62,397 nucleotides of DNA, taken from Beijerinckiaceae bacterium (GTDB lineage: Bacteria > Pseudomonadota > Alphaproteobacteria > Rhizobiales > Beijerinckiaceae). Position 1 is the first letter of the stretch; each line of letters opens with the position of its first letter. A program made the position numbers and the translations under genes. Where the stretch lies: the NCBI GenBank assembly GCA_025458025.1, contig JALOTF010000004.1, positions 1-62,397 of the forward strand, written 5' to 3'. Under the pieces are notes generated by a model that was not told where the DNA came from, made no database searches, and saw only the letters and a program-made list of their open reading frames with translations. This document shows positions 23,545 to 44,181 of this stretch, one piece after another.

Positions 23545-24338
23545 GTTGAAGCTCCCATTTTGCCAATCGCGGGCCGGTCGGTCATGTCGGCCAGCACTTC
23601 CGCCACATGCCGCACCTCGACCTCCGAGCCCATGCGCGAGAGCTTGCCCGCGATGTTCAGGAGGCAGCCGAGATCACCGGCGAGCAGGGTTTTCGCGCCA
23701 GTGGCATTCACGTTGGTGGCTTTCTCGGTGACGATCTGATCGGAGATCGGGCCATATTTAACAGCGAAGGTGCCGCCGAAACCGCAGCAGACCTCTGAGT
23801 CCTTCAGCTCCACCATTTCCAGCCCTTCCACCGAGCCCAGCAGCTGGCGCGGCTGGCGCTTGATGCCAAGTTCGCGCAGGCCCGAGCAGCTGTCATGATA
23901 GGTGCAGGTGCCAGCATGCTTGGCCTCAACCTGCATGATGCCGAGAACATCCGTGAGGAACGAGACGAGCTCAAAGGTCTTGGCCGCGAGTTTCTGCGCG
24001 CGCACCGAAAGACCGGGATCATCCTCGAAAAGCTCGGGATAATGCTTCGCGATCATCCCGCCGCAGGAGCCCGAGGGCACAACCACATAATCAAAGCGCT
24101 CGAAGGCCTCGATCATCTGCAGCGCAAGATCGCGCGCCGTACGCCGGTCGCCGGAATTGAACGCGGGCTGGCCGCAACAGGTCTGCGGCGGCACTTCCAC
24201 CACGCATCCCGCCTTTTCGAGCAGCTTCGCCGAGGCGAAACCGATGGATGGGCGAACAAGATCGACAAGGCAGGTCGCAAAAAGCGCGACCCTTGGCCGG
24301 CTTCCCGGCTTGGGCAGATTCTGGGTTGTTTCGGACAC
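23541..24338 (-). CDS. lutA: Lactate utilization protein LutA (Cys-rich, CCG domains)
   Basis: A 265-residue protein with two Cys-rich CCG domains: QTCCGQPAFNSGD near residue 53 and EVCCGFGGTFAVKYG near 185, plus HDSCSGLRELG. These resemble the heterodisulfide-reductase and glycolate oxidase GlcF subunits. It is the first gene of lutABC. The promoter must lie in the 170 bp shared with the divergent PPTase gene. No LutR/LldR-type regulator is adjacent. The start is ATG 24338. Confidence 0.95.
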   Translation of the reverse strand: MSETTQNLPKPGSRPRVALFATCLVDLVRPSIGFASAKLLEKAGCVVEVPPQTCCGQPAFNSGDRRTARDLALQMIEAFERFDYVVVPSGSCGGMIAKHYPELFEDDPGLSVRAQKLAAKTFELVSFLTDVLGIMQVEAKHAGTCTYHDSCSGLRELGIKRQPRQLLGSVEGLEMVELKDSEVCCGFGGTFAVKYGPISDQIVTEKATNVNATGAKTLLAGDLGCLLNIAGKLSRMGSEVEVRHVAEVLADMTDRPAIGKMGAST

Positions 24339-24508
24339 GCAAAACCACGGGCGCAGGCCCGTCTCCCTTTGGTGCGCCTGTCCTTTTCTGGGCAGGACAG
24401 CGCTTTGCAGATGTTTTAGGCTTCCGGCGCCGCTGGCGGCAAGTGGTTATACAGCCAAGATTGCCTTGCGGCCCTGTGTCGCGCGCAGCGAGGGTTCACC
24501 AAAAGCGC

Positions 24509-25342
24509 ATGCCCCCCCCCCCGTCCGCTCTGATCGATGAGGCCATGCGGCATGGGATCGCCCCCCTGCCGGAACCACCGGGCGCGCCTATCGCAAAGCT
24601 GGCCGCCCGGCTCGCAGATGCGCGATTCGTCTGGTTCTTTGCCGATCTCGGACAGCTGCCGGCGGATATCACTCCTGCAAGCCCTGCCGAATTGGCCGAG
24701 GCGCAGAGCTTCCCCGCCGGGATGCAGCGCGAAGGCTGGCTCGCCCGCCGTCGCCTCGCGCGGCATGTTCTGGCCATGGCAATCGGCCTGCCAGACCCTG
24801 CTGCGCTGCGACTCGGCACCGATCCGCTCGGGCGGCCGGTGATTCTCGCTGGAGCCACCGGCTGGCATCTCTCGTTTGCGGCGCGTGACACGCTGGCGCT
24901 GGTCGCCATCGGCGATCAGCCGCTGGGCGTAGACCTCGAACTCGAACAGCCGGATCTCGTGATCCCCTTCAACATGCTGCGGGACGACGAGCGGCGCTGG
25001 CTGATGGCACAGCCCAAAGCCCTACGCGTTGCTGCCTTCTGCCGAATCTGGGCGGCGAAGGAGGCGATCACCAAGGCCATGGGGACCGGGTTCCGCATCG
25101 CGCCGGAGGATATCCGGCTTCCGGGATCGAAAGCCGGCCATGTGGATATCCGCAATTCCGGCGAATCAAGCGCGAGCGAAATCGAGAATCGGCTTGTGCG
25201 CGATATGCTGGTCTTGACGCGTGAGGGCATTCGCGTGTTTGTCTCGCGCCAATCCGGGGCGGCGCAGGGGGGACTGCAGGGCACCGGCGTTGCCGTTGCG
25301 CGCGCTATGAGGCCAGGTCCAGCCAATCCCGAAAGCGGGTAA
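24509..25342 (+). CDS. 4'-phosphopantetheinyl transferase superfamily protein
   Basis: A 277-residue Sfp-type protein that would attach phosphopantetheine from CoA to a Ser of a carrier protein. GVDLELEQPD supplies the Mg-binding Asp and Glu, and WAAKEAITKAMGTGF is the KEA motif. WHLSFAARDTLALVA is the conserved SH-type segment. The start at ATG 24509 is followed by 11 consecutive C (24512-24522), encoding four prolines. Another in-frame ATG lies at 24545. The reading frame stays open upstream to 24248, but that would overlap lutA. It ends 11 bp before terC and probably shares its transcript. Confidence 0.85.
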   Translation: MPPPPSALIDEAMRHGIAPLPEPPGAPIAKLAARLADARFVWFFADLGQLPADITPASPAELAEAQSFPAGMQREGWLARRRLARHVLAMAIGLPDPAALRLGTDPLGRPVILAGATGWHLSFAARDTLALVAIGDQPLGVDLELEQPDLVIPFNMLRDDERRWLMAQPKALRVAAFCRIWAAKEAITKAMGTGFRIAPEDIRLPGSKAGHVDIRNSGESSASEIENRLVRDMLVLTREGIRVFVSRQSGAAQGGLQGTGVAVARAMRPGPANPESG

Positions 25343-27563: not shown

Positions 27564-27638
<75 letters not shown>

Positions 27639-27657: not shown

Positions 27658-29016
27658 TTACTCCGCAGCCTGCGCCCAGCGCGGCATGGCGTTCAGCGCA
27701 TTCACGAGCGGCGCCTCGTAGGAACCTGCGGGACGGATCACCCGCACCTCGCCCGCTTCCACCAGCACTTCTGCCGGCATTGGGTGCGACAGGAAGCTCA
27801 CCGGGCTGGCCGAGAGGCCGTAGGCGCCGGATTGCATCACCGCCACGAGATCGCCCGCCTGCAAGTCCGGCAGGGCCGTCTGTCGCCCGAGGGTATCGAG
27901 CGGCGTGCAGAGCGGGCCCACGAGATGCGTCTCGCCCGTCACGGGCTGATCGAGATGCGAAGGCGCAATGATCGGATAATCGCGCTTGATCACCTGCCCG
28001 AGATTGCCCGAGGCCGCGAGATGGTGGTGCATGCCGCCATCTATCACCACGAAGCGCTGGCAGCGTGATATTTTCACCGCACGCACGCGACCGATATAGA
28101 GCCCCACCGGTCCGGCCAGCCAACGCCCCGGCTCAACGAGCACATGGGCATCTTTCAACAGCGGATCAGCCGCCAATTGCGCCTTCAGGGCCGGAAGGCC
28201 CGCCCGGATAACGGCAAGATCGAGCGTCGCATCGCCGGCATGATACGGAATGCCCAGGCCGCCGCCGAGATCGATGGAGCGCAGGGGCACGCCTGCAAGT
28301 GCCGCAAGGCGACTCGCAAGGTCGAGGCCGCAGCGCCATTGATCGAGCAGCACGGCCGCATCGAGAATCTGCGTTCCGGCGAAGAGATGGATTCCCGCAA
28401 GATCGAGCGAGGGCTGGGCTTTTACCGCCGCAACCGCTTCCGCCATCTGCTCCTCGTCGATGCCGAAGGCGGAAGGCTTGCCGCCCATGCGCATGGCCCC
28501 GCCCTGCGCCTGCGAGCCCGGATTGATGCGCAACGAGACACGCGCCTTCAGGCCCAAAGTCGCTGCACGGGCCGCGACCATCGCGATTTCGTCGAAGCCC
28601 TCGAGGTGAACCTCGCCGATCCCCTCGCGCAAGACGAGATCAATTTCTGCTTCGCCCTTGCCGGGGCCCGCGAAGAGAATGCGCTTGGCGACGCAACCGG
28701 CGGAACGCGCGAGCAGGAATTCCGCACCGGAGGCGATTTCCAGCCCCGCGCCCTCTTCCACCAACACGCCGGCGATCGCCGGATTGGGGTTCGCCTTGAT
28801 GGAGTAATAGACCTCGGCGAAGCCTTCGAGCGCACTCGACAAGGCCCGGAAGCGCTTACGCAACAGGCCCGCATCATAGGCGTAAAGCGGCGTGCCGAAC
28901 CGCGCCGCGAGATCGGCCACAGCCACCCCGCCCAGCACGAGGCCCTTGGGCGAAACAGCGAAATTCTCGACGATCAGCGAGGCAGCGAGCGGGGCAACCG
29001 TGAGGGGCGTGTTCAT
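27658..29016 (-). CDS. Fold-type III PLP-dependent decarboxylase, exosortase-system type (TIGR03099-like)
   Basis: A 452-residue decarboxylase of the alanine-racemase-fold (DapDC/OrnDC) group. The PLP lysine is K74 in VYYSIKANPNP; GIHLFAGTQIL, SIDLGGGLGIPYHAGD and VEPGRWLAGPVG are the phosphate and substrate elements. In place of the usual CESGD of diaminopimelate decarboxylase it has GPLCTPLDTLG, and QSGAYGLSASPVSFLSHP follows; this pair is typical of the subfamily found beside exosortase loci. The start overlaps the ligase stop by 4 bp. By analogy with BtrK, it may decarboxylate an amino acid bound to the neighbouring ACP rather than a free one; that is inference. Confidence 0.88.
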   Translation of the reverse strand: MNTPLTVAPLAASLIVENFAVSPKGLVLGGVAVADLAARFGTPLYAYDAGLLRKRFRALSSALEGFAEVYYSIKANPNPAIAGVLVEEGAGLEIASGAEFLLARSAGCVAKRILFAGPGKGEAEIDLVLREGIGEVHLEGFDEIAMVAARAATLGLKARVSLRINPGSQAQGGAMRMGGKPSAFGIDEEQMAEAVAAVKAQPSLDLAGIHLFAGTQILDAAVLLDQWRCGLDLASRLAALAGVPLRSIDLGGGLGIPYHAGDATLDLAVIRAGLPALKAQLAADPLLKDAHVLVEPGRWLAGPVGLYIGRVRAVKISRCQRFVVIDGGMHHHLAASGNLGQVIKRDYPIIAPSHLDQPVTGETHLVGPLCTPLDTLGRQTALPDLQAGDLVAVMQSGAYGLSASPVSFLSHPMPAEVLVEAGEVRVIRPAGSYEAPLVNALNAMPRWAQAAE

Positions 29017-30527
29017 GCCGCGCGCTCCGCCACAAGGCGTTTGTAATCCACCTTGCCGTTGGGCGTCACCGGCAGTTCCGGCACAAGCTCAATGCGCGAG
29101 GGCACCATGTGGGCGGGCAGACGTTCGGCCAGTTCTTTCAGGATCTGGTCGGTATCGAGCCGCTCCTGCTGGCCCACGGCCACGGCGAGCAGGCGCTGGC
29201 CCAGCCATTCATCGGGCACGCCGATGGCCGCGACCTGCCGGAACGCGCCGGAGAGCATCAGCGCATCCTCCACCTCGCTGGGGCTTATGCGATAGCCGGC
29301 TGATTTGATCATCGCATCCTGCCGGCCCACAAAATAGAGGTAGCCTTCCTCATCCTCATAGACGAGATCGCCCGACCAGCAGACGAGTTCCGCGCCCTCA
29401 TGTGGCGCGCGCAAAGGGTTGGGCCTGAGCACGCGGGCGGTTTCTTCCGGCCGGCGCCAATAGCCCATCGAAACCGTCGGGCCACGATGCACGAGAATGC
29501 CCGGTTCGCCCGGCTTCGCGCGTCGTCCATCCGCCGTGAGCGGGAAAACCTCGCATTCGGGAATGGCCTTGCCGATGGAAGTGGGGCGGCGATCCACCTC
29601 GGCGGGGGTGAGATAGGTCGAGCGGAAAGCCTCCGTGAGGCCATACATCAGGAAAATCTGCGTTGTGGGCAGGATTTCCCGCAGGCGACGCACGGTTGCC
29701 TCGGGCACCGCACCGCCGGAATTGGTGATGTAGCGCAGATGCGGAAGGGGCGTGCGCGCGAGGCTCGGTGCCGCCTTGGTGAGGATGGCCCAGATGGTGG
29801 GAACGCCGGCAACACCGGTGATCTGGTGTTTGGCCAGTTCACGCACGATCTGGTCGCCCATCTGGAAGGTGAAGAGCACAATCGTCGCGCCCTGCTCCAC
29901 CACCGTGAGCAGCTGGTTCAGCCCGTAATCGAAGCTGAAGGGCAGGATGGAGAGGATGCGATCTTCCGCGGTGATCGACAGATAGGTGCGCACGATGCGC
30001 GTGCCCGCGACGAGATTCGCATGGCTCAGCATCACGCCCTTCGGGGCGCCGGTGGAACCGGATGTGTAGAGAATCGCGGCGAGATCCGGCCCGATGCCGC
30101 GCGCGGGCGGCGCTGGCGGCAGAGGCGGCCGATCCGCCGTGCAATCGAGCACGGAAAGACCCTCAATGCCTTCGATGGCATCGCCGAGCGCCTTGCGGTT
30201 CTCGGCATCCGTGTACAGCGCCTTCGCGCCGCTATCGACGAGGATATGGCGGATCTGCTGGGGCTTCAGCAGCGGATTGATTGGCACGAAGACCGCATCC
30301 ACACGGCTCGAAGCGAAGATTGCTGCGCATTTCTCGAGGTTCTTCGGCAGCAGAATGGCAATGCGGTCGCCGCGTTCAACGCCGGCGGCTTGGAAAACGG
30401 CGGCCAGCTTTTCCACCTCATCGGATAGCTGGCGGAACGACCAGCTCCGGCTGCCTTCAATCAGCGCAGGGCGATCAGGATCGGGTTTCGGTAAGGCGAG
30501 CAGATCGTGCAGCAGGATCGGGTTCAT
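29013..30527 (-). CDS. AMP-forming acyl/aminoacyl ligase, exosortase-system type (TIGR03098-like)
   Basis: A 504-residue ANL-superfamily adenylating enzyme. The AMP-binding core is LYTSGSTGAPKGVMLSHANL, followed by FLMYGLTEAFRSTYLTPAEV, WSGDLVYEDEEGYLYFVGRQ and a C-terminal catalytic Lys in TPNGKVDYKRL. The sequence around YGLTEAFRSTYL and RRPTSIGKAIP matches ligases annotated as exosortase A-associated. It would activate a carboxylic or amino acid as AMP ester and load the adjacent ACP. The start is ATG 30527, 7 bp after the ACP stop, and the end overlaps the decarboxylase start, so all are one operon. Confidence 0.9.
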   Translation of the reverse strand: MNPILLHDLLALPKPDPDRPALIEGSRSWSFRQLSDEVEKLAAVFQAAGVERGDRIAILLPKNLEKCAAIFASSRVDAVFVPINPLLKPQQIRHILVDSGAKALYTDAENRKALGDAIEGIEGLSVLDCTADRPPLPPAPPARGIGPDLAAILYTSGSTGAPKGVMLSHANLVAGTRIVRTYLSITAEDRILSILPFSFDYGLNQLLTVVEQGATIVLFTFQMGDQIVRELAKHQITGVAGVPTIWAILTKAAPSLARTPLPHLRYITNSGGAVPEATVRRLREILPTTQIFLMYGLTEAFRSTYLTPAEVDRRPTSIGKAIPECEVFPLTADGRRAKPGEPGILVHRGPTVSMGYWRRPEETARVLRPNPLRAPHEGAELVCWSGDLVYEDEEGYLYFVGRQDAMIKSAGYRISPSEVEDALMLSGAFRQVAAIGVPDEWLGQRLLAVAVGQQERLDTDQILKELAERLPAHMVPSRIELVPELPVTPNGKVDYKRLVAERAA

Positions 30528-30534
30528 GTGATCC

Positions 30535-30831
30535 TCACCCCTTGCGGCGACGCACGAAGGCGAGCAGCGCGCCAACGGTCTCGAAATTGTCGAGGGTGAA
30601 ATCATCATCGGCAATCTCGATGCCGAGTTCGTCCGACAGGAACGACATGAGCTGCAGGATCGCGAGCGAATCCAGCACGCCCGAAGAGAGAAGCGGCGTC
30701 TCATCCGTGAGTTCGAGATTGCGCGCGGCCGGAGACAGCTGGCGGAGGAATCCGATCAGCAGGGCACGTTCTGCCCCGTATGCATCCAGAGCCGGGATCA
30801 CCGGTGTTTCAACATGAGCCGTCGCAGACAT
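30535..30831 (-). CDS. Acyl carrier protein
   Basis: A 98-residue carrier protein. The phosphopantetheine site is Ser55 in SGVLDSLAILQLMSF, with the usual acidic helix II afterwards (DELGIEIADDDFTLDNFETV). The N-terminus has an extension of about 25 residues before helix I. It lies between the GNAT-like gene (12 bp) and the ligase gene (7 bp), which makes it a dedicated carrier for this pathway and not the fatty-acid AcpP. The PPTase at 24.5 kb is the nearest candidate to activate it. Confidence 0.93.
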   Translation of the reverse strand: MSATAHVETPVIPALDAYGAERALLIGFLRQLSPAARNLELTDETPLLSSGVLDSLAILQLMSFLSDELGIEIADDDFTLDNFETVGALLAFVRRRKG

Positions 30832-30843
30832 TCTGCCTCTCCT

Positions 30844-31686
30844 TCAAAAGTCGAACAGGGCCAGCTCCGAACCAAAATGGTCCGTCCGGTCCGGGAATGA
30901 ATCGCCCCGCGCAAACCAGATGCCATGAGGGCGGTAGCCCTGGCCGCGCCGGCCCTCGGGCCGCGCATCGATGCGCAACAGCAGCGTGCCGCGTGCCAGC
31001 ATGAAGCGCGCCAAAGCCGGCAGGCCTGCTTCGAGCGCCGCGCGGCTGCCGGCAAACAGTATGCGCGCGCCCGGCAGGCCACGCATGCGTATCGGTTTGA
31101 GAACAAGGAGATGGCGCGCCGATCCCTGTTCCAGCACAAGTGCCATGCAGCCCCAGGCGACATGCTCGGCGATGAGCGCATCCGGCGGGGCCCCCGCCGC
31201 GAGCGCTTCGCCGGGATTCCACCGACGCAGGCGCGCAGCCGAGGCGCGGAAAGCCATGAACGGCGTGCCGATCCATTCGATGCCACCGCTGGCCGGCACG
31301 AATCCGAAGGACGGCAGCATTTTCTGCACATCGGGCGTGGGTGTGAGATCGGTGAAGATCACCCGCTCGTCACGGAAAAGGGCGCGCAGCATGAGCGGTG
31401 CCTTCCAGCGATGCGTTTCGCGCACATACCAGCTGGAGACATTCACGATGGGCCGCAGCGTTTCGCCCCCGTTCATGCGCGGGGAGGCCGGCGTGAGGAT
31501 GATGCCGACCGGCTCGTTCTTGTCGATCCAGAAGAAGCCCGGCGGATAATCCAGTTCACGGTTGCCCGGCCAGGCGAACAGGCGCGCAATGGCCTTTTCC
31601 CAGAAGGCGCGGCCGCGTTCCGGAAAACCCTCCTCCAGCAATTGGAGGATCTCGGTCGCATTTTCGGGCCCGAATGGCCTCAGCAT
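30844..31686 (-). CDS. GNAT-like acyltransferase of unknown substrate
   Basis: A 280-residue protein that appears to hold an N-terminal GNAT-type domain: EILQLLEEGFPERGRAFWEK, GIILTPASPRMN, NVSSWYVRETHRWKAPLMLR as the acetyl-CoA-binding strand and helix, and FTDLTPTPDVQKMLPSFGFV. The C-terminal 130 residues resemble no family I know. It is the first gene of the operon, 12 bp before the ACP, so it may take an acyl group from the ACP and transfer it to an amine or hydroxyl. Related GNAT proteins sit in exosortase-associated clusters. The GNAT call is moderate. Confidence 0.65.
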   Translation of the reverse strand: MLRPFGPENATEILQLLEEGFPERGRAFWEKAIARLFAWPGNRELDYPPGFFWIDKNEPVGIILTPASPRMNGGETLRPIVNVSSWYVRETHRWKAPLMLRALFRDERVIFTDLTPTPDVQKMLPSFGFVPASGGIEWIGTPFMAFRASAARLRRWNPGEALAAGAPPDALIAEHVAWGCMALVLEQGSARHLLVLKPIRMRGLPGARILFAGSRAALEAGLPALARFMLARGTLLLRIDARPEGRRGQGYRPHGIWFARGDSFPDRTDHFGSELALFDF

Positions 31687-32136: not shown

Positions 32137-33834
32137 GTGGAGCACAATACCCCGCTCATTGCCACAATTGCCGTCGGCCTTGGGCTGGCCTTTGTGCTCG
32201 GGGTGCTGGCTCAGCGGTTCCGGCTGCCGCCGATTGTCGGTTATCTCGTCGCCGGCATCATGGTCGGGCCTTTCACGCCCGGCTTCGTTGCAGACCAGAA
32301 GCTTGCCATCGAGCTTGCCGAGATCGGCGTTATCCTGCTGATGTTCGGCGTGGGCTTGCATTTTTCGCTGAAGGATTTGCTGGCGGTGCGGGCCATCGCT
32401 GTGCCTGGCGCGATTGGGCAGATCGGGGTCGCAACGCTGCTCGGCATGGGCCTCGCATGGACCATGGGCTGGGGCATGGGGGCCGGCTTCGTTTTCGGCC
32501 TCGCGCTTTCGGTTGCGAGCACGGTGGTTTTGTTGCGCGCGTTGCAGGAGCGGCGGCAGATCGAGACTGAAAAGGGCCGGATCGCGGTCGGCTGGCTCAT
32601 TGTCGAAGATCTGGTGATGGTCATCACGCTGGTGCTCATCCCGCCGCTCGCAGCCTTCCTCGGCGGCAAAGCCCCGGCCGAGATGGCGAGCCCCGGCCTT
32701 GCGGCTTCGCTTGGCGTCGGGCCGATCTGGGGCACGCTGCTGATCACGGCGGTCAAGGTCGGGCTGTTTGTGGCGTCGATGCTTGTCTTCGGGCGCAAGC
32801 TTATCCCATGGATGCTGCATTACGTGGCCCATACGGGCTCGCGCGAATTGTTCCGGCTTGCGGTGCTGGCGATTGCCCTGGGCGTGGCCTTCGGTTCGGC
32901 GAAGCTGTTCGGTGTTTCGTTCGCGCTGGGCGCTTTCTTCGCCGGCATGGTGCTGGCGGAATCCCCGCTCAGCCATCAGGCCGCGAAGGAAACGCTGCCC
33001 CTGCGTGATGCCTTTGCGGTGCTGTTCTTCGTGTCGGTCGGCATGTTGCTCGATCCGCGCGTTTTTGCGAACCATCCCTTTGCGGTGATCGCGACCTTCA
33101 TGATCATCACGCTCGGCAAGTCGGTAGCGGCCTATCTGATCGTGCGCGCCTTCGGCCATTCGAAGAGCGTGGCGATGACCATTTCTGCGAGCCTCGCGCA
33201 AATTGGCGAGTTCTCGTTCATTCTCATCATGCTCGCCGTGAAGCTCGCGATCGTGCCGCAGGCCGCGAGCGATTTCGTGGTGGCCGGCGCGATCCTCTCC
33301 ATCCTTGTGAACCCCCTGATGTTCCTGGCGATTGACCGCTTCGCCACCCAACGCACGACCAACGAGACAGCCGGCTCTACATCGCCCTCCCCAGAGCCGC
33401 CGGCCGAGGAGGAACAGGAGGAACCAACGCACCTCGCCGGCCATGCGGTACTGGTGGGCCATGGCCGGGTGGGCTCGCGCATCCGCGCGACCTTGGCCGA
33501 ACGCGGCATTCCCCATCTCGTGGTGGAGGAAGAGGATTCCACCCTGGCCATGCTCAAGGCGCAGGGTGTGGAGGCTTTCCGTGGCCCCTGCGGCGAACCT
33601 GCGACTCTCGCGCGGCTCAATCTGGGGCAGGCGCGCTACCTCATTACAGCCATTCCCGATGCCTTCGAGGCAGGGCATCTCGTGGAGGCCGCCAAGGCTG
33701 CGAACCCCGCGATCTTTGTGGTGGCCCGGGCACACAGCACTGACGCAGTGGATTATCTCCGGAAGGTTGGTGCCGATGCCGTGCTGATGGGCGAGGAAGA
33801 GCTGGCGAAAGGCATGGCTGCGGCCTTGCCGTGA
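32137..33834 (+). CDS. CPA2-family cation:proton antiporter with TrkA-N domain (YbaL/KefB type)
   Basis: A 565-residue inner-membrane antiporter. Residues ~1-400 hold about 12 membrane helices (MEHNTPLIATIAVGLGLAFV, VGPFTPGFVADQKLAIELAE, IGVILLMFGVGLHFSLKDLL), and ~430-565 a Rossmann TrkA-N domain with GHAVLVGHGRVGSRIRATLA. It probably exchanges K+ or Na+ for H+. A Glu/Pro-rich linker (PEPPAEEEQEEPT) separates the parts. The start codon is GTG 32137, supported by GAGAAGGAG upstream. It converges with dctP. Confidence 0.92.
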   Translation: MEHNTPLIATIAVGLGLAFVLGVLAQRFRLPPIVGYLVAGIMVGPFTPGFVADQKLAIELAEIGVILLMFGVGLHFSLKDLLAVRAIAVPGAIGQIGVATLLGMGLAWTMGWGMGAGFVFGLALSVASTVVLLRALQERRQIETEKGRIAVGWLIVEDLVMVITLVLIPPLAAFLGGKAPAEMASPGLAASLGVGPIWGTLLITAVKVGLFVASMLVFGRKLIPWMLHYVAHTGSRELFRLAVLAIALGVAFGSAKLFGVSFALGAFFAGMVLAESPLSHQAAKETLPLRDAFAVLFFVSVGMLLDPRVFANHPFAVIATFMIITLGKSVAAYLIVRAFGHSKSVAMTISASLAQIGEFSFILIMLAVKLAIVPQAASDFVVAGAILSILVNPLMFLAIDRFATQRTTNETAGSTSPSPEPPAEEEQEEPTHLAGHAVLVGHGRVGSRIRATLAERGIPHLVVEEEDSTLAMLKAQGVEAFRGPCGEPATLARLNLGQARYLITAIPDAFEAGHLVEAAKAANPAIFVVARAHSTDAVDYLRKVGADAVLMGEEELAKGMAAALP

Positions 33835-43248: not shown

Positions 43249-44181
43249 ATGACATCGAACGAGAGGTTCGCCGTTTCTGTCGTCTCCCCCTCCCGCCGGC
43301 ATGTGCTGATGGGCGCTCTTGCGCTCTCCGCATGGCCTGGCGCGCTCTCCGCCCAAACCCCCACGAAACTGAAGGTGGCGACCACCTTCACGATCATCCA
43401 GGACATCGCGCAGAACGTCGCGGGTGAGGCCGCGATCATCGAGAGCATCACCAAGCCGGGCGCCGAGATCCATGATTACCAGCCGACCCCGCAGGATATC
43501 GTGCGGGCGCAGGGCGCGCAGCTGATCCTGTGGAACGGGCTCAATCTCGAGCGCTGGTTTGAGAAGTTCTTCGGAAGCCTCAAGGGGGCAAAAAGCGCGG
43601 TCGTGAGCGAGGGCGTGGAGCCCATGCCGATCCGCGAGGGCGGCTATTCCGGCAAGCCCAATCCGCATGCCTGGATGTCGCCCAAAGCCGCGCTGACTTA
43701 CGTCGAGAACATCCGCAAGGCGCTGAGTGCCGTAGACCCCGCGAATGCGGCAATCTATGCCCGCAATGCCGAGACCTATGCCGCGAAGATCCGCGCGGTG
43801 GAGGAACCTCTGCGCCAGCGCCTCTCGCGCATCCCGGAAGCGCAGCGCTGGCTGGTAACCAGCGAGGGCGCGTTCAGCTATCTCGCGCGCGATTTCAACC
43901 TGCGCGAGGCCTATCTCTGGCCGATCAACGCTGATGAGCAGGGCACGCCGCAGCAGGTGCGCCGGCTGATTGATCTCGTGCGGAAGAACAGGATTCCGGT
44001 CATTTTCTCTGAAAGCACGGTCTCGGATCGCGCCGCGAGGCAGGTGGCCCGCGAGACCGGAGCCAGGTATGGCGGCGTGCTCTACGTCGATTCCCTCTCG
44101 ACGTCCGATGGGCCGGTGCCCACCTACCTGAAACTTCTGGACGTGACGGTGGACACCATCGCGCGAGGCTTCGGCACATGA
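43249..44181 (+). CDS. sitA: Mn/Fe ABC transporter substrate-binding protein SitA
   Basis: A 310-residue cluster A-I metal-binding protein. Metal ligands are the His in [12 protein letters not shown], the His in [14 protein letters not shown], the Glu in [14 protein letters not shown] and the Asp in [11 protein letters not shown]. Glu and Asp at the last two positions mark the Mn/Fe (SitA/PsaA) type, not the ZnuA type, and there is no His-rich loop. The signal sequence has a twin-arginine-like SRRHVLM followed by [21 protein letters not shown] precedes ATG 43249. Overlaps sitB by 4 bp. Confidence 0.92.

Follow-up and report, generated by a model that had tools for sequence, protein, structure and literature searches.

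Several described pathways carry an amino acid on a carrier protein while it is decarboxylated. In the formation of the vicenistatin starter unit by VinN/VinL/VinO, and with FlvN, which uses aspartate for fluvirucin, an AMP-forming ligase with a characteristic pocket is combined with a stand-alone acyl carrier protein (ACP) and a pyridoxal phosphate (PLP) decarboxylase that acts on the ACP-bound thioester (PMC11284099, PMC11253843). VinN loads 3-methylaspartate through one carboxyl onto free ACP, and in its pocket Asp230 holds the amino group, a loop is shortened and Ser299 and Arg331 lie at the other carboxyl (PMC11253843, PMC7756342), Phe231 being thought to push the beta-amino acid toward the short loop (PMC11253843). 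VinO needs the ACP thioester before acting (PMC11284099). The bolagladin cluster of Burkholderia gladioli contains a similar set, BolO/BolC/BolN, consisting of a VinN-like ligase, an ACP and a BtrK-like decarboxylase, for which formation of beta-alanyl-ACP from aspartate was proposed; a bolN deletion strain no longer made the product, and beta-alanine failed to rescue it (PMC7756342). A candidate set of this kind, arranged as an operon of four genes termed G, A, L and D, is described here from contig JALOTF010000004.1 of a Beijerinckiaceae bacterium (assembly GCA_025458025.1, a genome of 3.29 Mb that is 97% complete), the whole 62,397-nucleotide stretch analysed being called the window. In order of transcription, the genes are:

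30844..31686, minus strand: G, a putative GNAT-like (perhaps tandem-GNAT) acyltransferase of 280 aa, an open reading frame (ORF) outside any Pfam or NCBIfam family
30535..30831, minus strand: A, a stand-alone ACP of 98 aa with attachment site Ser55 in VLDSLA (PF00550, 31.2 bits against a threshold of 20.8)
29013..30527, minus strand: L, an AMP-forming ligase of 504 aa with a VinN-type pocket (D200, Y201, S270, R302 and short loop; TIGR03098, 580.6 bits; VinN match)
27658..29016, minus strand: D, a BtrK-like fold-type III PLP decarboxylase of 452 aa with Lys74 in YYSIKAN (TIGR03099, 402.7 bits; BtrK match, motifs and tree)

G and A are separated by 12 bp and A and L by 7 bp, and L and D overlap by 4 bp. 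This layout had been given by an earlier reading made from the sequence alone (the sequence-only reading), and the ORF calls agree with it, as do the PP-binding match and the position of Ser55 by count for the ACP, and the best NCBIfam models, TIGR03098 and TIGR03099, for its AMP-forming ligase and fold-type III decarboxylase. Its GNAT label found no direct profile support, although the predicted fold of an orthologue speaks for it at low confidence.

The best explanation of the operon is that a short beta-aminoacyl group is built while bound to the carrier protein and is then passed on, and the route as a whole, from aspartate through isoaspartyl-ACP and beta-alanyl-ACP to a beta-alanyl acceptor, is regarded as fairly probable. 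L would adenylate the side-chain carboxyl of a dicarboxylic amino acid, for which L-aspartate is the likeliest candidate, and load this amino acid onto holo-A, with D200 serving the amino group and S270 and R302 the free alpha-carboxyl; D would take the alpha-carboxyl off isoaspartyl-S-ACP to give beta-alanyl-S-ACP and CO2; and G, as a GNAT-fold transferase, would carry beta-alanyl over from the ACP to an acceptor with an amine (or hydroxyl), for which an amino sugar, either in a surface glycan or in the cytoplasmic precursor of one, is plausible. Loading and decarboxylation on the carrier are clearly probable, the choice of aspartate over glutamate or methylaspartate stands slightly above an even chance, and transfer of the product by G is evenly balanced. 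The sequence-only reading had proposed this general course, with an amino acid loaded onto the ACP, decarboxylated there and transferred or modified by the GNAT, and had likened it to BtrI/BtrJ/BtrK of butirosin synthesis. Its first two steps agree with the comparisons made here, whereas transfer leans on a low-confidence fold and on gene context; the likeness holds for D, whose best match is BtrK, but not for the ligase, which is nearest to VinN and not to the ATP-grasp enzyme BtrJ, and the route is sharpened to one like that of VinN/VinL/VinO. There are also differences from the natural product systems. The vicenistatin enzymes serve a polyketide synthase (PKS) together with VinM and VinK, whereas here, in another phylum, a GNAT-like gene stands instead; the bolagladin enzymes feed a nonribosomal peptide synthetase (NRPS), with N-acylation by a KAS III homologue proposed and no GNAT mentioned in the excerpt of PMC7756342.

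The carrier-bound route is favoured because the VinN pocket is kept in L and because D is of BtrK type and free of the motifs of diaminopimelate decarboxylase (DapDC). VinN is the best single-domain match of L in the PDB (239 bits in one stretch), chains of LgrA ranking above it by summing two domains, the better of which scores 179 bits. With the pocket segment alone (146 residues), VinN comes first, followed by CmiS6, IdnL1 and HitB (PDB entries named after PMC11253843); all three are ACP ligases for beta-amino acids. Residues D230, F231, S299 and R331 of VinN align with D200, Y201, S270 and R302 of L without gaps, such that L possesses the Asp for the amino group, a bulky Tyr in place of Phe231, the Ser/Arg pair for the second carboxyl and the shortened beta13-beta14 loop. 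Each of these four residues, and hence the D-Y-S-R pocket, is found in all 21 clade ligases aligned (19 chromosomal, including that of the window, and two from plasmids) and the pocket in none of seven paralogs of the same genome, seven having been fetched of 16 other matches. At the Arg position, CmiS6, IdnL1 and HitB have Ala in the pocket-segment alignments, and their substrates are without a second carboxyl (PMC11284099); the Arg of L thus points to a substrate that does have one, as a later decarboxylase needs. Two of the ten other full-length adenylating enzymes in the neighbourhoods have a similar pocket (D-Y-T-R), both at loci with type III decarboxylases (L087 and L097). The DltA model scores L at 178 bits.

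The best solved relative of D is BtrK (265 bits), which is annotated as L-glutamyl-[BtrI ACP] decarboxylase, the butirosin amino acid being glutamate rather than aspartate; DapDC follows at 190 bits. D and BtrK share GPLCTPxD at the place of GPxCE in the DapDC rows, and the RPx[LM]Y stretch of those rows is missing from D, whereas the genome's own LysA (L010) has both RPx[LM]Y and GPxCE. Residues of these two motifs have assigned roles in diaminopimelate decarboxylase. The TIGR01048 model scores D at 274.1 bits, its cut-off being 297.9. Besides D, two decarboxylase homologues lie on other contigs of the host genome, one LysA-like and one like ornithine decarboxylase (ODC) by motif, and the acidic residue that follows the active-site Cys in these (CES and CDS, respectively) is absent in D. 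In a tree of 57 rows, with a midpoint root only and with rows L087 and L097 left out before building, the D clade forms one group of 26 rows (one pair identical; support 100/99). Its sister group (25 rows; 100/96) consists of decarboxylases encoded beside TIGR03098 ligases or near the D clade and is called TIGR03099 by position, without scoring by that model; BtrK, on a long branch, groups with these two apart from LysA (99/96). D is predicted to be a BtrK-type decarboxylase of a carrier-bound substrate; a DapDC or ODC function was rejected because of the motifs, the tree and the separate homologues in the genome.

A three-row decarboxylase profile (E <= 1e-80) searched against 397 genomes of the order Rhizobiales gave 28 matches, 22 at 571 bits or above and the next, after a gap, at 355. 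Sixteen of the 22 D-clade genomes, among which the window's is counted, carry G-A-L-D in the same order on one strand; three of the other six have A-L-D, two have A-L as a pair on one contig and D on another, and one is cut by contig ends. Because the same order recurs in 16 of 22 genomes, the association of the genes exceeds chance, and the four genes constitute a conserved operon. The L and D genes overlap at 18 of the 21 loci whose spacing was measured, a count that favours small values because the start codon was chosen to bring the gap closest to zero. The cassette is present in only two of the four sampled genomes of the window's genus, where D is 70% identical, and its distribution is thus patchy. 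Plasmid copies also exist: the same four genes lie inside exopolysaccharide clusters of two Shinella strains, including Shinella sp. HZN7, and a Rhizobium plasmid has the cassette in an exopolysaccharide cluster with its ligase in pieces. In this last copy, from Rhizobium sp. CC-CFT758 (L091, 12248-13885), the ligase is fragmented over different frames and unannotated.

G, as found in the window, matches no family in Pfam or NCBIfam. A 25-row alignment of its relatives shows six invariant residues (W29, G50, G61, N82, H175 and E274), and when these 25 proteins are compared with GNAT models, two models match one member each, with E values of 0.14 and 0.24. A fold model of the orthologue in L012 appears to have the strand and helix order of a GNAT, with a second similar half discerned by eye. 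Used as a Foldseek query, this model found four PDB matches at E <= 0.001, all acetyltransferases (the best AAC(6')-Iy, E 5.9e-4) but with template modelling scores by query length of only about 0.3; the top 50 are mostly acetyltransferases with two microtubule chains, and their scores by query length are about 0.2-0.35. A first fold of the window's own G, with a predicted local distance difference test score (pLDDT) of 49, is a hint only. At E <= 1e-10, relatives of G occur in 20 of the 22 D-clade genomes (in 17 as part of the cassette or split off from it, in three elsewhere) and in 32 of 375 others, a comparison in which the profile was partly built from cassette copies, the lineages are not independent and the 397 genomes are taken to be the same set as in the search for D. 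Twenty regions, which account for 21 of the 39 matches outside cassettes, were examined, and in ten of the 17 from genomes without D, a ligase for amino acids and carrier proteins that resembles aminoacyl-tRNA synthetases lies in the same 20-kb region as G together with an acyl-CoA dehydrogenase; the ligase is directly beside G in three of these ten, all of one genus. Ligases of this type charge carrier proteins with amino acids. Loci recorded with a G relative, such a ligase and the dehydrogenase are L160-L162, L164, L165, L167, L169, L170, L174, L178 and L030. Pseudochrobactrum possesses an L-A-G trio with no decarboxylase annotated nearby, and a search of viral contigs found no more G relatives. 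These observations suggest carrier-bound aminoacyl groups as the substrates of G, and G may represent an unclassified GNAT-like family, as far as the modelled fold indicates, that draws on carrier-bound amino acids.

A number of observations weigh against the aspartate-to-beta-alanyl route. The enzyme activities are predictions from sequence, both L and D fall below the TIGR03098 and TIGR03099 cut-offs, and BtrK itself acts on glutamyl-ACP, which keeps glutamate as a less likely candidate. Nine distinct relatives of L have D-A-T-R instead of D-Y-S-R (four in exosortase genomes and five others), meaning that the pocket varies and the substrate may vary with it; the D-A-T-R pockets of Sinorhizobium, Aureimonas, Paracoccus and the four exosortase genomes may accept a different one. 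For G, no GNAT family gives a significant sequence match, a profile search of the PDB returned no chain up to E 5, and the model of the L012 orthologue, which is 69% identical, has low confidence (mean pLDDT 62). Three of the 22 D-clade genomes have A-L-D with no G nearby, and the ligase of the Pseudochrobactrum trio (L031) does not have the VinN pocket, keeping the Asp but with a longer loop and with Leu and Cys in two of the four pocket positions; G is therefore not confined to D-Y-S-R chemistry. Finally, apart from the window there are 15 full cassettes on chromosomes, and for 14 of them a limited set of labels reveals no glycan gene up to about 10 kb away, the exception being L082 with its GDP-mannose dehydratase-like, epimerase, WecB/TagA/CpsF-like and GumC-like neighbours, and with this rarity of nearby glycan genes a glycan acceptor is only one candidate.

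Four other explanations differ from the aspartate route in the substrate or in the fate of the product. The closest keeps the carrier-bound chemistry and substitutes glutamate, which L would load through the gamma-carboxyl for D to convert to gamma-aminobutyryl-ACP as in butirosin; the identity of D's nearest solved relative, a glutamyl-ACP decarboxylase, argues for it, but the pocket positions of L agree with VinN, the bulky Phe231 being replaced by Tyr, and BtrJ is not an AMP-forming ligase, making glutamate unlikely. Somewhat less likely again is N-acylation of the amino group of beta-alanyl-ACP by G, which would prime a lipopeptide or siderophore made elsewhere. The amino group is modified in known systems by other enzymes, VinM N-aminoacylating in vicenistatin and N-acylation being proposed for bolagladin (PMC11284099, PMC7756342), and the A-L-D locus L079 lies beside TonB receptor and FecCD transporter genes. 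Against it, one Streptomyces NRPS query matched only single ligase or carrier genes in 21 cassette loci and the window, where no multidomain synthetase was found with this query (no PKS query being run), and a release enzyme is not among the four genes.

The sequence-only reading had offered the alternative that the product of D is a free diamine or polyamine, to be acylated by G with an acyl group from an ACP that L has charged with a fatty acid. Fold-type III decarboxylases do often use free basic amino acids and AMP-forming ligases often use fatty acids, but the pocket of L, with its Asp and Arg, is one for an amino acid, D shows BtrK-type motifs and no acidic residue after the active-site Cys, and the LysA and ODC-like homologues that have one are kept as separate genes, so this alternative is disfavoured to the point of being improbable. 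Supply of beta-alanine for pantothenate in place of a missing panD is more doubtful still, and very improbable. PanD (PF02261) had no match in eight of nine genomes tested, the window's included (G000, G404, G026, G339, G392, G078, G123 and G400), so beta-alanine for pantothenate must come from elsewhere in these; however, the congeners G026 and G339 lack panD and the D clade alike, the ACP first needs a cofactor derived from pantothenate, and the operon contains no thioesterase.

The sequence-only reading had also called the ligase and decarboxylase typical of exosortase-associated proteins. TIGR03098 and TIGR03099 are the best NCBIfam models for L and D, but L is 12 bits short of its cut-off (592.35) and D is 76 bits short (478.45). 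Both models are 'hypothetical equivalogs' named only for their company with exosortase (NCBIfam). As that reading had observed of exosortase and polysaccharide genes in the window, there is no match to exosortase (PF09721) at E <= 1 in the host genome, which rules out an exosortase link there, and no glycan gene in the window by the limited label set. Exosortase is absent from all 28 genomes of the order with the D clade or a nearby decarboxylase, whereas of 34 other genomes that match TIGR03098 strongly 30 possess it and four do not, so the enzymes are not tied to exosortase. Ligases at TIGR03098 loci nevertheless resemble L, 23 of 29 having D-Y-S-R, five D-A-T-R and one D-Y-T-R, with Asp, Ser/Thr and Arg kept in 29 of 29; this set was fetched from 38 other matching genomes, with 25 over the family cut-off, 25 in exosortase genomes and two (G241 and G049) from the order. 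The two groups differ in model scores, in the separate clade formed by D and in the presence of exosortase, and the 20-kb stretches L179-L198 yielded no relative of G. No published function for TIGR03098/TIGR03099, or for beta-alanyl transfer to polysaccharide, was found in the open literature searched, which is not proof of absence.

It is a tentative and rather doubtful extension that the cassette and the exosortase-associated loci are one carrier-protein system decorating surface glycans with decarboxylated amino acids. The group would be beta-alanyl or, with a D-A-T-R pocket, a longer omega-aminoacyl, and the transferases would be interchangeable: G in the cassette described here, LbH acyltransferases in other lineages and different ones at exosortase loci. 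Aminoacylation of surface polymers by DltA/DltC and AlmE/AlmF likewise employs a ligase, a small carrier protein and a transferase, but those systems have no decarboxylase. AlmF and AlmG belong to the Alm system, and the Dlt and Alm transferases are membrane proteins of other families. AlmE and DltA are listed in PMC11253843.

Beyond the four genes, the settings of the cassette give no common functional clue, the neighbours scanned being unrelated and varying from lineage to lineage (18 proteins of L064, L065, L073 and L074, and one each of L068 and L079) and including a TRAP transporter, a polyhydroxybutyrate depolymerase, RraA, FlhA and SecA. In locus L079 (2349-10673), A-L-D comes directly after the genes for the TonB receptor and the FecCD-type ABC transporter, which resembles a siderophore setting. 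Variant clusters in L084, L085, L086, L095 and L198 contain GT61, an LbH serine-acetyltransferase-like gene, ligase, ACP and decarboxylase, and in five loci the LbH and GT61 genes occupy the place of G upstream of L. A Tritonibacter plasmid cluster (L097, 9034-14898) resembles the bolagladin set, with KAS III homologues, a D-Y-T-R ligase and a decarboxylase match within a gene annotated as acyl-CoA dehydrogenase. Two tRNA-Thr(ggt) genes lie in the window (27564-27638 and 43817-43894), the first ending about 20 bp from the stop of D, and among 18 loci scanned tRNA-Thr(cgt) adjoins the cassette in L062 and tRNA-Ala in L074. On the other side, a YbaL-type antiporter gene (32137-33834, plus strand) adjoins the cassette, and three congeners contain no match to it at E <= 1e-100, so this flank is variable too. 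About 3 kb from the cassette lies a gene that could convert A to its holo form:

24248..25342, plus strand: an Sfp-type phosphopantetheinyl transferase ORF, the true start probably internal (PF01648, E 8.4e-14)

It was rejected as a fifth operon member, being on the opposite strand and unmatched by tblastn in 21 cassette loci of relatives (L062-L082).

The chemistry proposed for this operon is of a known kind in a new combination. The match of the L pocket to VinN and the BtrK-type motifs of D yield a testable prediction for TIGR03098 and TIGR03099, namely an aspartyl-ACP ligase and an isoaspartyl-ACP decarboxylase. If true, the beta-aminoacyl-ACP chemistry of macrolactams, bolagladin and butirosin would be placed in ordinary Proteobacteria, an unclassified GNAT-like family possibly drawing on carrier-bound amino acids would be added to it, and two widespread enzyme families named for the company of exosortase may gain an explanation.

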